Positions 22,168 to 25,575 of a DNA stretch of 64,000 bases are shown in pieces (the first letter of the stretch is position 1; every line of letters begins with the position of its first letter). The DNA comes from Myxococcota bacterium (GTDB taxonomy: Bacteria > Myxococcota_A > Bradymonadia > UBA7976 > UBA1532), in assembly GCA_963169045.1 (NCBI GenBank), contig CAUJDF010000057.1, forward strand, positions 1-64,000, in the 5' to 3' direction. The translations under genes and the position numbers were made by a program. The notes beneath the pieces are model-generated. The model worked only from the letters and a program-made list of their open reading frames with translations. It did not search any database and was not told where the DNA came from.

Positions 22168-22486
22168 GGGACCGTGAGGCGTTCCGCCTCGAGCCGCCGC
22201 GGCGCGCGACGCTCCTCGCACGCCTGACGACTCCGAGTACCGCTCGCGGTCGCCAGCGAAGGCGGCCTCGTCGCGCTGCACTTCGCCGCCGACCTCCTCG
22301 TGTTCGGCCAGCTGCGTACGCCGGACGGCGGGGCCCCGAGCCCCCTCGCCCGCGCCGGCTTCTTCCTCGGTCCCTCCCGGTGAATGCCTCCCGGTGTATC
22401 CCGAGAGCATACGAATTGCGGCCCTCGGTGCCCGTCGGCAGCGGAGAATCCTTCCCTCCGGGCGGCAATGACGCTTTGATTCGGGA
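22168..22486. other. Gene-free stretch with a possible gene remnant
   Basis: No complete gene is seen in these 319 bases. Two frames look coding in part: 22172-22228 reads DREAFRLEPPRRATLLARL, and after a shift, 22228-22383 reads LRVPLAVASEGGLVALHFAA and on to a TGA with strong G/C at third positions. This may be a decayed fragment of a frameshifted gene, or chance. The rest (22384-22486) is the likely promoter region of the redox operon. Confidence 0.35.
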
Positions 22487-23362
22487 ATGCGCAAGACGAC
22501 GCCCGACGCCCTGCCGGTGCTCCCACCGGCGCTCGATCGCCGAGGTTTCCTGAAGACGCTGGGGTGCGCCGCCGGGTGCGCCGCGCTGTCGACGCTGGCG
22601 AAGGGGTGCACCGTCGTCGAGCTCTACGGCGGCGCCGGCGCCGACGTGACGTTCGACCTGGCCGTGGCGCCCTACGACGCGCTGCGGACGGTCGGCGGCG
22701 TCGTGCCCGTCGACACCGGCGCGCGCAAGCTCTTGCTCATCCGCCTCACCGAGACGGAGATGGTCGCGCTCGATCGCATCTGCACTCACGTCGGCTGCGA
22801 CATGACACCCGGCGTGAGCGGCGCCTGGGACGCCCCGTCGAAGCAGCTCATCTGTACCTGTCACGGCTCGGTCTTCGACGAGGGGGGCAAGGTGCTCTCG
22901 GGGCCGGCCTCGAGCGACCTCGCCACCTTCCCCGTCGAGTTCGACGCCGCCGCCGGCACGGGCGTGATCCGCGTCGGCGGCGACGAGGCGCAGCCCGGCG
23001 ATCCCATCGCGCTCGAGGAGGACGACGGCGAGGTGGTCCTGTCGCTCGACACACCCGGCGCCGAGGCGTTGCGGACCGTCGACGGCATGGTCCCCGTCGA
23101 CGTGGGCGACAAGAAGCTGCTGCTGATCCGCACCGCCGACGACACGGTGGTCACGCTCGACCGCATCTGCACCCACGAGGCGTGCGATCTGGCGCCGAAC
23201 CGCGCCGGTGTGTTCGCCAACGGCAAGCTCGGCTGCATGTGCCACTTCTCGGAGTTCGCGACCGACGGCGCGGTGCTCACCGGCCCCGCCGAGCGCCCGC
23301 TCGCCGCGTACGCGACGACCTTCGACGCCGGCGCCGGCGAAGTCACGGTGCGCCTCCGATGA
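22487..23362 (+). CDS. Tat-exported protein with two tandem Rieske iron-sulfur domains
   Basis: The protein has 291 residues. A Tat signal with RRGFLK (18-23) and a Gly/Ala/Cys-rich hydrophobic core suggests export with the cluster already in place; a non-canonical lipobox (LAKGC) is possible. Rieske domain 1 has CTHVGC (99-104) and CTCHGS (123-128); domain 2 has CTHEAC (228-233) and CMCHFS (250-255). Both have all four cluster ligands and the extra disulfide cysteines of bc-type Rieske proteins, which tend to have high redox potential. The two halves are clearly an internal duplication (ALRTVGGVVPVD versus ALRTVDGMVPVD). Its stop overlaps the next start (ATGA at 23359-23362). The partner should be an electron donor or acceptor in the periplasm. 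Confidence 0.93.
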   Translation: MRKTTPDALPVLPPALDRRGFLKTLGCAAGCAALSTLAKGCTVVELYGGAGADVTFDLAVAPYDALRTVGGVVPVDTGARKLLLIRLTETEMVALDRICTHVGCDMTPGVSGAWDAPSKQLICTCHGSVFDEGGKVLSGPASSDLATFPVEFDAAAGTGVIRVGGDEAQPGDPIALEEDDGEVVLSLDTPGAEALRTVDGMVPVDVGDKKLLLIRTADDTVVTLDRICTHEACDLAPNRAGVFANGKLGCMCHFSEFATDGAVLTGPAERPLAAYATTFDAGAGEVTVRLR

Positions 23363-24618
23363 GGGCGCTCGTCACGCTGGGCGTGTGGCTCGTCGCCGCC
23401 ACCGCGGGCGCGGTGCCGCGCATGTCGCTGACCGCCGGCTCGCCCTGCGCCACGTGCCATGTCTCGCCGTCGGGCGCGGGCCTGCGCAACGAGATCGGAT
23501 GGAGCGCGATGAGCCACACCGGCGCGCTCACGTTCGACCAGATCGGGCTCGACTTCCTGCACGATCAGAAGAGCAACGCGCTCTTCGACGGCACGGTGAT
23601 GCTCGGCTTCGACATGCGCCTGCAGTACGTGCGCTTCGGGCGGCCGACGCTCGACGCCGACGGCGACGTCGTCGCGCCCGAGGCGCGCTTCATCCCCATG
23701 CAAGTCCAGCCGTCGATCGCCGTGGTGCCCACCGACGGACTGACGCTGACGGGCACGTGGAGCGCCGGGCCGAACACGCAGGACGGCGAGTGGTGCGACA
23801 CCATCTACCCGGGCCAGAGCTGCTACGAGGCGCAGGCCATCGTGGAGCCGACGGCGGGCCTCGCCCTCCGCGCGGGGGTCATCCAGCCGAGCATCGGCAT
23901 CCGGCACGACGACCACACCATGTACGTGCGCAGCGACGCCTACGAGCGCAGCCGGCCGCTGGTGCCGCCGAACTACGCCGAGCCCGGCCTCGAGGTGAAC
24001 TGGCAGCCGCGCTCGTGGTTCCGGACCGACGCCGGCGGGTTCTACGCCCACAAGCTCGACGAGGTGATGAACGACACGGGCGAGACCGCCGATCTGTGGC
24101 CGGTCTCCTACCTGGCGCGCGTCACCTTCCTGCCGCAGATGCAGTTCCGCAGCGCGCCCGAGGCCTCGACCGAGGTCGACGAGTTCGGCGATCCCATCGC
24201 CACCTCGGGCGAGGCGCGCACCTGGCTGCAGCTCAACACATGGCTCGGCGCGTCGGTGTACGGCAGCGGCGATTACATGATGCAGAACGTGTTCCTCGGC
24301 GTCGGCCGCAGCGGCGGCGGCAGCCTGATGCTCGAGGGATCGCACTCCACGCGCACCGTGGACCACGAGACCTTCGCCGGCATGGTGATGCTCTCGTACG
24401 AGCTCTTCGACTGGTTCGTGTTGTCGGCCCGCGCGGAGCGGGCGATCGGCAAGGTGGACGTGGGGGCGGGCCGCGACGAGGCGCGCGTGTCCCAGTATGT
24501 GGCGACGCTCGAGCTCTTCCCGATCCCCTACGTCGAGATCCGTCCTGAATATCGCGTGATCAAGACCGACGAATATCTGTTGGGGCAGACGACGGTTCAG
24601 CTCCACGTGTTCTACTGA
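23359..24618 (+). CDS. Outer-membrane beta-barrel with N-terminal CxxCH haem site
   Basis: The protein has 419 residues. A signal peptide (MRALVTLGVWLVAATAGAVP) is followed by CATCH (30-34), a c-type haem attachment motif, within SPCATCHVSPSGAGLRNE. The remaining 370 residues alternate polar and hydrophobic residues as in an outer-membrane barrel and end in ...LHVFY, with a C-terminal aromatic as in BAM substrates. This combination suggests a haem in or at the mouth of a barrel. It is translationally coupled to the double-Rieske gene. The closest comparable idea is a porin-cytochrome conduit, but there is only one haem motif and no MtrA-like partner in the window. Confidence 0.85.
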   Translation: MRALVTLGVWLVAATAGAVPRMSLTAGSPCATCHVSPSGAGLRNEIGWSAMSHTGALTFDQIGLDFLHDQKSNALFDGTVMLGFDMRLQYVRFGRPTLDADGDVVAPEARFIPMQVQPSIAVVPTDGLTLTGTWSAGPNTQDGEWCDTIYPGQSCYEAQAIVEPTAGLALRAGVIQPSIGIRHDDHTMYVRSDAYERSRPLVPPNYAEPGLEVNWQPRSWFRTDAGGFYAHKLDEVMNDTGETADLWPVSYLARVTFLPQMQFRSAPEASTEVDEFGDPIATSGEARTWLQLNTWLGASVYGSGDYMMQNVFLGVGRSGGGSLMLEGSHSTRTVDHETFAGMVMLSYELFDWFVLSARAERAIGKVDVGAGRDEARVSQYVATLELFPIPYVEIRPEYRVIKTDEYLLGQTTVQLHVFY

Positions 24619-24631
24619 GGGGAGATGTGAC

Positions 24632-25240
24632 GTGAAGGTACGTTCTCTGTTGCTTGTGGCGAGCCTGGGCCTGGGTGGTGTCGCGAACGCGCAGGAGGCG
24701 GCGCCGGCGGCGGCGCCGGCGGCGGCGACGAAGGCCGTCGAGTTGGGCGGCCAGATGAAGTTCCTCAGCGACGCGCCGGTGGAGAAGATCTTCGGCACCG
24801 TCGACGGCGTCAGCGGCAAGCTGGCCACCGACGCCGCCGATCTCGCGAAGACGACGGGCAAGTTCACGGTGCCCGTCGCCTCGATGAAGACGGGCAACGA
24901 CAAACGCGACGAGCATCTCCGCAACGACGCGTGGCTCGACGCCGCGAAGTTCCCCGAGATCACCTTCGACGTGAAGTCGGTCAAGGTGCTCGAGGACGAC
25001 AAGGCGACGCCCGTCCGCACCGCGAAGCTCGAGGCGACCGGCGATCTGACCGTGCACGGCGTGACCGTGCCCCTGACGGCGCCGGTCGAGATCAAGTGGA
25101 AGGACGACAAGGTGAAGGCGAGCACGAAGTTCACCGTGAAGCTCGCCGACCACAAGATCACGGGCGCCAACGGCGTCATCGGCAAGAAGGTCGGCGAGAC
25201 CATCCAGATCGAAGGCACGCTGCAGGGCACGGCCCGCTGA
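24632..25240 (+). CDS. YceI-family periplasmic protein
   Basis: This 202-residue protein has a signal peptide (MKVRSLLLVASLGLGGVANA), an Ala/Pro linker, and a YceI lipocalin-like barrel: FTVPVASMKTGNDKRDEHLR, then DAAKFPEITFDVKSVK and GDLTVHGVTVPLTAPVEIKW. YceI proteins bind isoprenoid chains such as polyisoprenoids or quinone-like lipids in the periplasm. That is interesting beside a Rieske protein, since a quinol could be an electron source, but this is inference. GTG at 24632 follows GAGGGGAGA and is 13 bp after the barrel gene. Confidence 0.93.
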   Translation: MKVRSLLLVASLGLGGVANAQEAAPAAAPAAATKAVELGGQMKFLSDAPVEKIFGTVDGVSGKLATDAADLAKTTGKFTVPVASMKTGNDKRDEHLRNDAWLDAAKFPEITFDVKSVKVLEDDKATPVRTAKLEATGDLTVHGVTVPLTAPVEIKWKDDKVKASTKFTVKLADHKITGANGVIGKKVGETIQIEGTLQGTAR

Positions 25241-25275
25241 AGCGCCGCCGACACACCGAGCAGGGAGGGCTCGTC

Positions 25276-25575
25276 ATGCGCATCGGAGCGCTGGTCTGTC
25301 TGCTGCTGGCGCTCGCCGCCGGCGGCGTCTGGGTCGCGAGCGGCAAGCACCTCGCGACGCTCACCTCGAAGCCGGTCGAGGTCGTGAAGACGGACGACTT
25401 CGGCGATGAGGTGAAGGAGATCCAGTGGCAGGAGACCTTCGAACCGGGCCTCGACCTCTGCGGTCCGGCGGGCGGGGGCTTCCTCGGCCTCGGGGCGCTG
25501 CTGCTCTTCCTCGACCGCCGCAAGCGCCGCGCCGCCGGGGGCGCGCCTGCCCGCCGCCGCGTCGACGCCGCCTGA
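25276..25575 (+). CDS. Small membrane-anchored protein with C-terminal sorting-like tail
   Basis: This 99-residue protein has an N-terminal hydrophobic segment (MRIGALVCLLLALAAGGVWV), a polar middle of about 45 residues, and a C-terminal hydrophobic helix GGGFLGLGALLLFLD followed by RRKRR. This Gly-rich/hydrophobic/Arg layout with a Cys before it (LCGPAGGG) resembles MYXO-CTERM-like tails, though more residues follow the Arg run. It is 35 bp after the YceI gene with a GGGAGGG ribosome site, so it probably belongs to the redox operon. Confidence 0.7.
   Translation: MRIGALVCLLLALAAGGVWVASGKHLATLTSKPVEVVKTDDFGDEVKEIQWQETFEPGLDLCGPAGGGFLGLGALLLFLDRRKRRAAGGAPARRRVDAA

Follow-up and report, generated by a model that had tools for sequence, protein, structure and literature searches.

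A conserved gene set of a Rieske protein, a predicted haem-carrying porin, a YceI protein and a small membrane protein in Myxococcota and Bacteroidota

In a stretch of 64,000 nucleotides from a Myxococcota genome of the class Bradymonadia (assembly GCA_963169045.1, contig CAUJDF010000057.1, positions 1 to 64,000; the whole stretch is referred to as the window), four consecutive genes encode a Rieske protein, a porin-like barrel with a c-type haem motif, a YceI protein and a small membrane protein (table 1). The same set recurs across several Phyla, and we consider it probable, at roughly 0.6, that it constitutes an outer-membrane electron-transfer module like Cyc2, with the Rieske protein as the periplasmic partner. 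An original prediction, made from the letters of the window alone, had placed four consecutive genes here, two of them coupled, and they are present as claimed: all lie on the forward strand, the Rieske and barrel genes share an ATGA overlap (23359–23362), and gaps of 13 and 35 bases separate the barrel from the YceI gene and the YceI from the small-protein gene. The G+C content of third codon positions is 0.93–0.95 in each of the four open reading frames, which marks them as coding. The source genome (9.0 Mb, 109 contigs) also holds genes for cytochrome c assembly.

To determine the distribution of the set, a profile of the barrel was searched against 84,980 species genomes; the profile was needed to find relatives, as a scan of genome contigs with the single barrel protein gave no match. 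This returned 76 loci in the Myxococcota, Kapabacteria, Ignavibacteria, Chlorobiota, and other Bacteroidota. Counting neighbors within 4.5 kb of the barrel and on the same strand, a Rieske gene was found at 67 of the 76 loci, the small protein at 60, YceI at 49, and all three at 41. The co-occurrence of Rieske and barrel genes had been named beforehand as the result on which the proposal could fail, and it is borne out. Gene order varies by clade: the order seen in the window, Rieske–barrel–YceI–small protein, occurs at 24 loci, with barrel–small protein–Rieske at 13, barrel–small protein–YceI–Rieske at ten, and YceI–small protein–Rieske–barrel at four. That the membership is kept while the order changes indicates a shared function. 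No fifth conserved neighbor was found at the Myxococcota loci, where gene calling was rough enough that a small gene could escape.

The association is also evident in presence and absence within the Bradymonadia, where 22 of the 57 genomes have a strong barrel match, in one case a fragment. A Rieske protein of the type found in the module is encoded in 21 of these 22 genomes and in none of the other 35 (Fisher P = 1e-14), and the small protein in 19 of the 22 and again in none of the 35 (P = 2e-12), although the relatedness of the genomes means that these values overstate independence. In five Bradymonadia genomes the module-type Rieske protein is about 270–310 aa long, one of them (G056) having been judged on length alone. 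In one family (f2) the genes are unlinked, yet a fusion of Rieske protein and cytochrome c is retained, and YceI is directly followed by the small protein in two of three genomes (G054 C149 and G055 C17). It should be noted that the small-protein gene beside YceI in the latter (G055 C17 101761–102015) crosses one in-frame TAA; the gene may be a pseudogene or its boundary may be wrong, or the TAA may be a sequencing error. The record titles of four loci (L116, L119, L150, and L160; Klebsiella pneumoniae, Armatimonadetes, Bradyrhizobiaceae, and Ectothiorhodospiraceae) seem wrong or doubtful for the content of the contigs, a few probably being mislabelled bins; L150 shares flanking genes with the Kapabacteria loci.

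The barrel gave only a subthreshold Pfam match (BBP2) and no sequence match to solved structures at E values up to 1. An AlphaFold2 model built with 65 aligned relatives (pLDDT, the predicted local distance difference test, 91.8; predicted template modeling score 0.86) is that of a 16-stranded general porin, with OprP and OprO as the nearest folds (Z 25.0, root-mean-square deviation 2.6–2.8 over 281–283 residues); the claim that the barrel folds as an outer-membrane protein thus holds in prediction. Residues 1–68, which fall outside the porin match, include the haem segment, modeled with a pLDDT of 86–92 in this run and disordered in a run with 17 sequences. As predicted, the protein has a single CxxCH motif, to which haem would be attached covalently, judging from the motif itself.

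Across 75 sequences, C30, C33, H34, G39, R43, G47, M114, D184–T187, P396, E397, R399, Q414, and H416 are unvarying or nearly so, and the one haem motif is thereby conserved across Phyla together with motifs of lumen type (M114, DDHT, PEYR, and QxH). In classical porins, loop 3 folds into the lumen. As DDHT is located in the loop between strands five and six of the model, we infer that H186 and H416 are candidate distal haem ligands. In the window and at loci L040–L047, an acidic motif, D-[DE]-F-G-D, is found in a long loop of the barrel (24178–24192 in the window; in families f1 and f2 only, and repeated in some members) and likewise as the conserved loop motif of the small protein (25393–25410 in the window).

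The Rieske protein of the window matches Pfam PF00355 (97.8 bits) in two stretches, and both domains have complete ligand sets with the two extra cysteines of the bc type, in agreement with the claim of two bc-type domains. Its N-terminus matches TAT_signal_seq (20.5 bits, cut-off 16.7), the signal of the twin-arginine translocation (Tat) pathway. The four cluster ligands, R18 and R19 of the twin arginine, and C41, which occupies the lipobox position, do not vary among 20 relatives from two Phyla; the invariant arginines and cysteine make the protein look like a lipoprotein exported by the Tat pathway. No Asp follows the lipobox Cys of the Rieske proteins, so that, by the Asp rule of Escherichia coli carried over to other Phyla, the anchor is probably in the outer membrane.

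The double Rieske domain was rejected as a defining trait: although the original prediction describes the window correctly, two domains are a local minority variant found here and at five loci from lake Myxococcota, most relatives having only one. In a tree of the domains, the ten lake domains form one clade (support 100/99) that does not include the window domains, and the duplication therefore occurred independently at least twice. In several of the lake genes (L121, L122, L124, L125, and L126), the two domains of a gene cluster with each other, an indication of either repeated duplication or gene conversion. More informative for function are the partners. In four genomes (G024, G045, G054, and G055), the C-terminal part of the Rieske protein is a cytochrome c domain with CxxCH (Cytochrome_CBB3), and at many Bacteroidota loci a cytochrome lipoprotein of the PSCyt1/CBB3 type is encoded separately close by; judging by these fusions and neighbors, the Rieske protein stands between the barrel and a cytochrome of the periplasm.

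The YceI assignment is secure (Pfam PF04264, 110.5 bits, cut-off 23.7), and among the solved chains closest to it are polyisoprenoid-binding proteins and the YceI of E. coli (1Y0G). Ubiquinone-8 has been found bound to YceI proteins (PMC9113575), and Cbp2D combines a YceI domain and two c-type cytochrome domains in one fused protein (PMC8981238). By analogy with the ligands of these other YceI proteins, a quinol or lipid might be the substrate of the present system. The small protein begins with a helix whose last conserved residue is a Trp, followed by a loop motif (D-x-F-G-D in Myxococcota, D-x-x-F-G-T in Bacteroidota), another hydrophobic helix, and a basic C-terminus. It has no Pfam or NCBIfam match and no conserved His or other haem ligands. 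From the pattern of helices, it most likely forms a hairpin in the inner membrane with its loop in the periplasm; that it docks YceI is guessed from the order of the genes. The original prediction of an anchored protein is right as to the membrane; the anchor, however, is a pair of hydrophobic helices, and the Cys before the second is not conserved. A MYXO-CTERM surface anchor, in which a C-terminal Cys precedes a helix and a cluster of Arg, was considered and rejected on these two grounds and for lack of an NCBIfam match. In one genome (G020; L055 3258–3971) the small protein has a long acidic repeat insertion (DPFEDEEDPFGDE...).

Another 20 monohaem porins of Myxococcota (L168–L187) match the family along its entire length in a profile comparison (335 columns, E 1e-35, probability 99.9). 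These cousins have in common with the module barrels the CxxCH segment, here AxPRFAxRxGxxCxxCHVNPTGGGxRN, the DDHT region, and the C-terminal His; they differ in their immediate neighbor: in most, the next gene downstream encodes a dihaem cytochrome c, and the vicinity of all 20 lacks Rieske, YceI, and small-protein genes. They thereby serve as an internal negative control for the link between the barrel and the Rieske protein, and their pairing with a dihaem cytochrome points to a general plan of a haem porin with a periplasmic electron carrier, as in Cyc2–Cyc1. The genome of the window has its own cousin, with two CxxCH motifs (G000 C52 24227–26566; L168 4228–6567, reverse strand).

Table 1. 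Positions in the window of the four genes and of the motifs discussed in the text.
Feature	Position	Strand	Description	Basis
Rieske gene	22487..23362	+	291 aa, two [2Fe-2S] Rieske domains, predicted Tat-exported lipoprotein	Pfam PF00355, TAT_signal_seq, invariant R18/R19/C41 in 20 relatives
Tat twin arginine (22538–22543) to lipobox-like C41 (22607–22609)	22538..22609	+		conservation
Rieske domain 1 ligands, CTHVGC...CTCH	22781..22864	+	residues 99–126	sequence motif
Rieske domain 2 ligands, CTHEAC...CMCH	23168..23245	+	residues 228–253	sequence motif
Barrel gene	23359..24618	+	419 aa, predicted 16-stranded outer-membrane porin with N-terminal c-haem segment	fold prediction, motifs across 75 sequences
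Haem segment PRMSLTAGSPCATCH	23416..23460	+	single CxxCH at 23446–23460	Cyc2-type proteins alike over 38 columns
DDHT	23908..23919	+	residues 184–187, long loop between strands five and six	identical in all 75 aligned relatives
PEYR and C-terminal QLHVFY	24544..24615	+	P396, E397, R399, Q414, H416	conservation
YceI gene	24632..25240	+	202 aa, periplasmic, lipocalin-like, signal peptide, GTG start	Pfam PF04264
Small-protein gene	25276..25575	+	99 aa, two-helix membrane protein, basic C-terminus	co-occurrence with barrel in class

Upstream of the Rieske gene, a coding-like stretch ending in a stop (22256–22383; EGGLVALHFAADLLVFGQLRTPDGG...) is perhaps the remnant of a gene.

In the module as we propose it, the barrel would hold a single c-type haem in its N-terminal segment, either within the lumen or at the mouth on the periplasmic side. 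The Rieske protein, exported folded by the Tat pathway and lipid-anchored, probably in the outer membrane, would exchange electrons with this haem on one side and with a periplasmic cytochrome c on the other, the latter being in some relatives the fused domain or the product of an adjoining gene. YceI would probably ferry a quinone-like isoprenoid across the periplasm, and the two-helix protein would probably dock it at the inner membrane, tying the conduit to the quinone pool. A path for electrons between periplasm and surface, as originally predicted, is thus the best-supported reading, given the fusions of Rieske protein and cytochrome c and the dihaem cytochromes beside the cousin porins. 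As to direction, originally assumed to be from periplasm to surface, we lean slightly, at little better than even odds, toward electrons flowing inward from a donor outside the cell, given the Cyc2–Cyc1 arrangement of the cousins.

Several observations weigh against the module, and against its likeness to Cyc2 in particular. We found no biochemistry on any member of the family. Of the 76 barrels, 27 have no YceI and 16 no small protein beside them, and both may be nonessential. Several of the Rieske relatives lack the additional cysteines of the bc type, and with the type of cluster varying in this way, one fixed redox potential is unlikely. The published Cyc2 signature is AXPXFAR[QK][TY] upstream and PXL downstream of the CxxCH (PMC8406198); the barrel of the window reads AVPRMSLTA in the first position and CHVSPSGAG in the second, where its relatives have CHVNPxGGG. 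Finally, no homology to Cyc2 at the level of the barrel was detected by hhalign with a small set of five proteins.

Other readings of the same genes were weighed. Since many bacteria have genes for Rieske and YceI proteins, unrelated genes might be neighbors by chance, but this is refuted by the recurrence of the set in many genomes and across Phyla in varied orders, by the strict co-occurrence, and by the cases where genes are unlinked but retained; we regard it as practically out of the question. Outward flow would have a quinol from the inner membrane, carried by YceI, reduce the Rieske protein, which would pass the electron by way of the barrel haem to an extracellular acceptor, reproducing the order of carriers in bc1 at the outer membrane and without cytochrome b. 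The bc-type CTHxxC/CxCH motifs of the window domains, the b6f and bc1 proteins as best relatives of the Rieske protein in the PDB, and the ubiquinone-8 held by YceI proteins (PMC9113575) would fit such a route, with the two-helix protein forming its inner-membrane end. It would nevertheless have to operate without YceI at the 27 loci that lack it, and the dihaem cytochromes of the cousins represent the arrangement of the inward Cyc2 route; we consider it rather unlikely. A more ambitious form of the proposal, put forward tentatively and doubtful as it stands, is that the Myxococcota and the Bacteroidota/Ignavibacteriota have a separate class of conduit across the outer membrane, in which a soluble YceI–quinone carrier, a Rieske lipoprotein of the outer membrane, and a monohaem porin link the quinone pool or periplasmic cytochromes to the exterior without any multihaem cytochrome.

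Two further alternatives assign the set other roles. The strict conservation of M114, D184, D185, H186, T187, E397, R399, Q414, and H416, kept in essentially all of the 65–75 sequences and far above what is seen in Cyc2 barrels (PMC8406198), could mean that the porin is redox-gated or catalytic, oxidizing or reducing a small molecule at a lumen haem with the help of DDHT, PEYR, and QxH while the Rieske protein just feeds the site. The same residues could, however, serve as haem ligands or as partners of the haem propionates, and the neighborhood has no conserved gene that would transport or metabolize a substrate, so that this seems improbable to us. Protection of the envelope in the manner of BcnA/LcoA is suggested by YceI lipocalins that, with cytochrome b561, guard membrane lipids against peroxidation (PMC9113575): YceI would gather lipid peroxyl radicals or oxidized quinone from the outer membrane, and the Rieske–haem pair would give or take electrons without any crossing of that membrane. 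We find this quite improbable, as the set has no cytochrome b561 and the small protein no conserved His, a 16-stranded haem porin would be unneeded, and the core is the Rieske–barrel pair with YceI as an optional member.

If the proposed module is correct, electrons reach or cross the outer membrane via a single haem served by a Rieske protein, and surveys limited to multihaem cytochromes or Cyc2 would not register that the predatory Bradymonadia, the lake Myxococcota, and the Kapabacteria/Ignavibacteria have this capacity. YceI proteins, which have ubiquinone as a ligand without an agreed use, would gain a testable set of partners. The full gene set also appears to be present in a cultured type strain, Microvenator marinus V1718T, making knock-outs and spectroscopy feasible.

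In the open-access literature we found no description of a Rieske protein paired with YceI at the outer membrane, of one paired with a porin in Ignavibacteria, or of a Rieske protein of Kapabacteria in extracellular electron transfer. The BcnA–LcoA system resembles the present one in having a YceI protein in an envelope redox operon (PMC9113575), but its partner is cytochrome b561, whereas here the partners are the Rieske protein and the haem porin. With the Rieske subunit of bc1 and b6f the window protein has the CTHxxC/CxCH motifs in common, but it appears to be a Tat lipoprotein without the membrane helix for a bc complex, at times with two domains or a fusion to cytochrome c; it scores below all equivalog cut-offs, and no cytochrome b is found among the conserved genes near the loci, which places it outside these complexes. 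The MtrAB, PioAB, and MtoAB systems likewise use an outer-membrane barrel for the passage of electrons, and Pio has a small periplasmic Fe–S partner, the high-potential iron–sulfur protein PioC (PMC10654088). Their barrel, however, has 26 strands around a decahaem cytochrome, in contrast to one haem, 16 strands, and a Rieske protein here, and no multihaem cytochrome gene is found among the four genes or conserved beside the loci, so that the set is not of the MtrAB type.

The original statement that the system differs from known porin–cytochrome conduits is therefore right with respect to MtrAB, but it overlooks Cyc2, a monohaem fused porin of the same architecture (PMC8406198). Cyc2-like genes have been reported in bins of Ignavibacteriaceae and Bacteroidetes (PMC6344600), and some of these may belong to the present family. 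A profile of five Cyc2-type proteins, taken from plasmid records and run without a positive control, gave no match in the source genome of the window. In an hhalign comparison of these five proteins with the module barrels and with the cousins, the haem segment is the only part that aligns (A-x-P-x-[FM]...G-x-P-C-x-x-C-H, 38 columns). The porin part of Cyc2 itself shows low conservation, and its nearest fold is also OprP/OprO (PMC8406198). Like the Cyc2 proteins of Mariprofundus and Acidithiobacillus (FeGenie clusters 1–3), the barrel has a signal peptide, one N-terminal CxxCH, and a predicted 16-stranded porin, and with 419 aa it exceeds the minimum of at least 365 aa in the architectural definition of Cyc2. 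The usual partner of Cyc2 is a cytochrome; here it is a Rieske protein, sometimes fused to cytochrome c, together with YceI and the two-helix protein. Judged by its motifs and predicted fold, the system is probably a monohaem porin conduit built like Cyc2, lying outside the published Cyc2 signature and having a Rieske protein as its putative partner.

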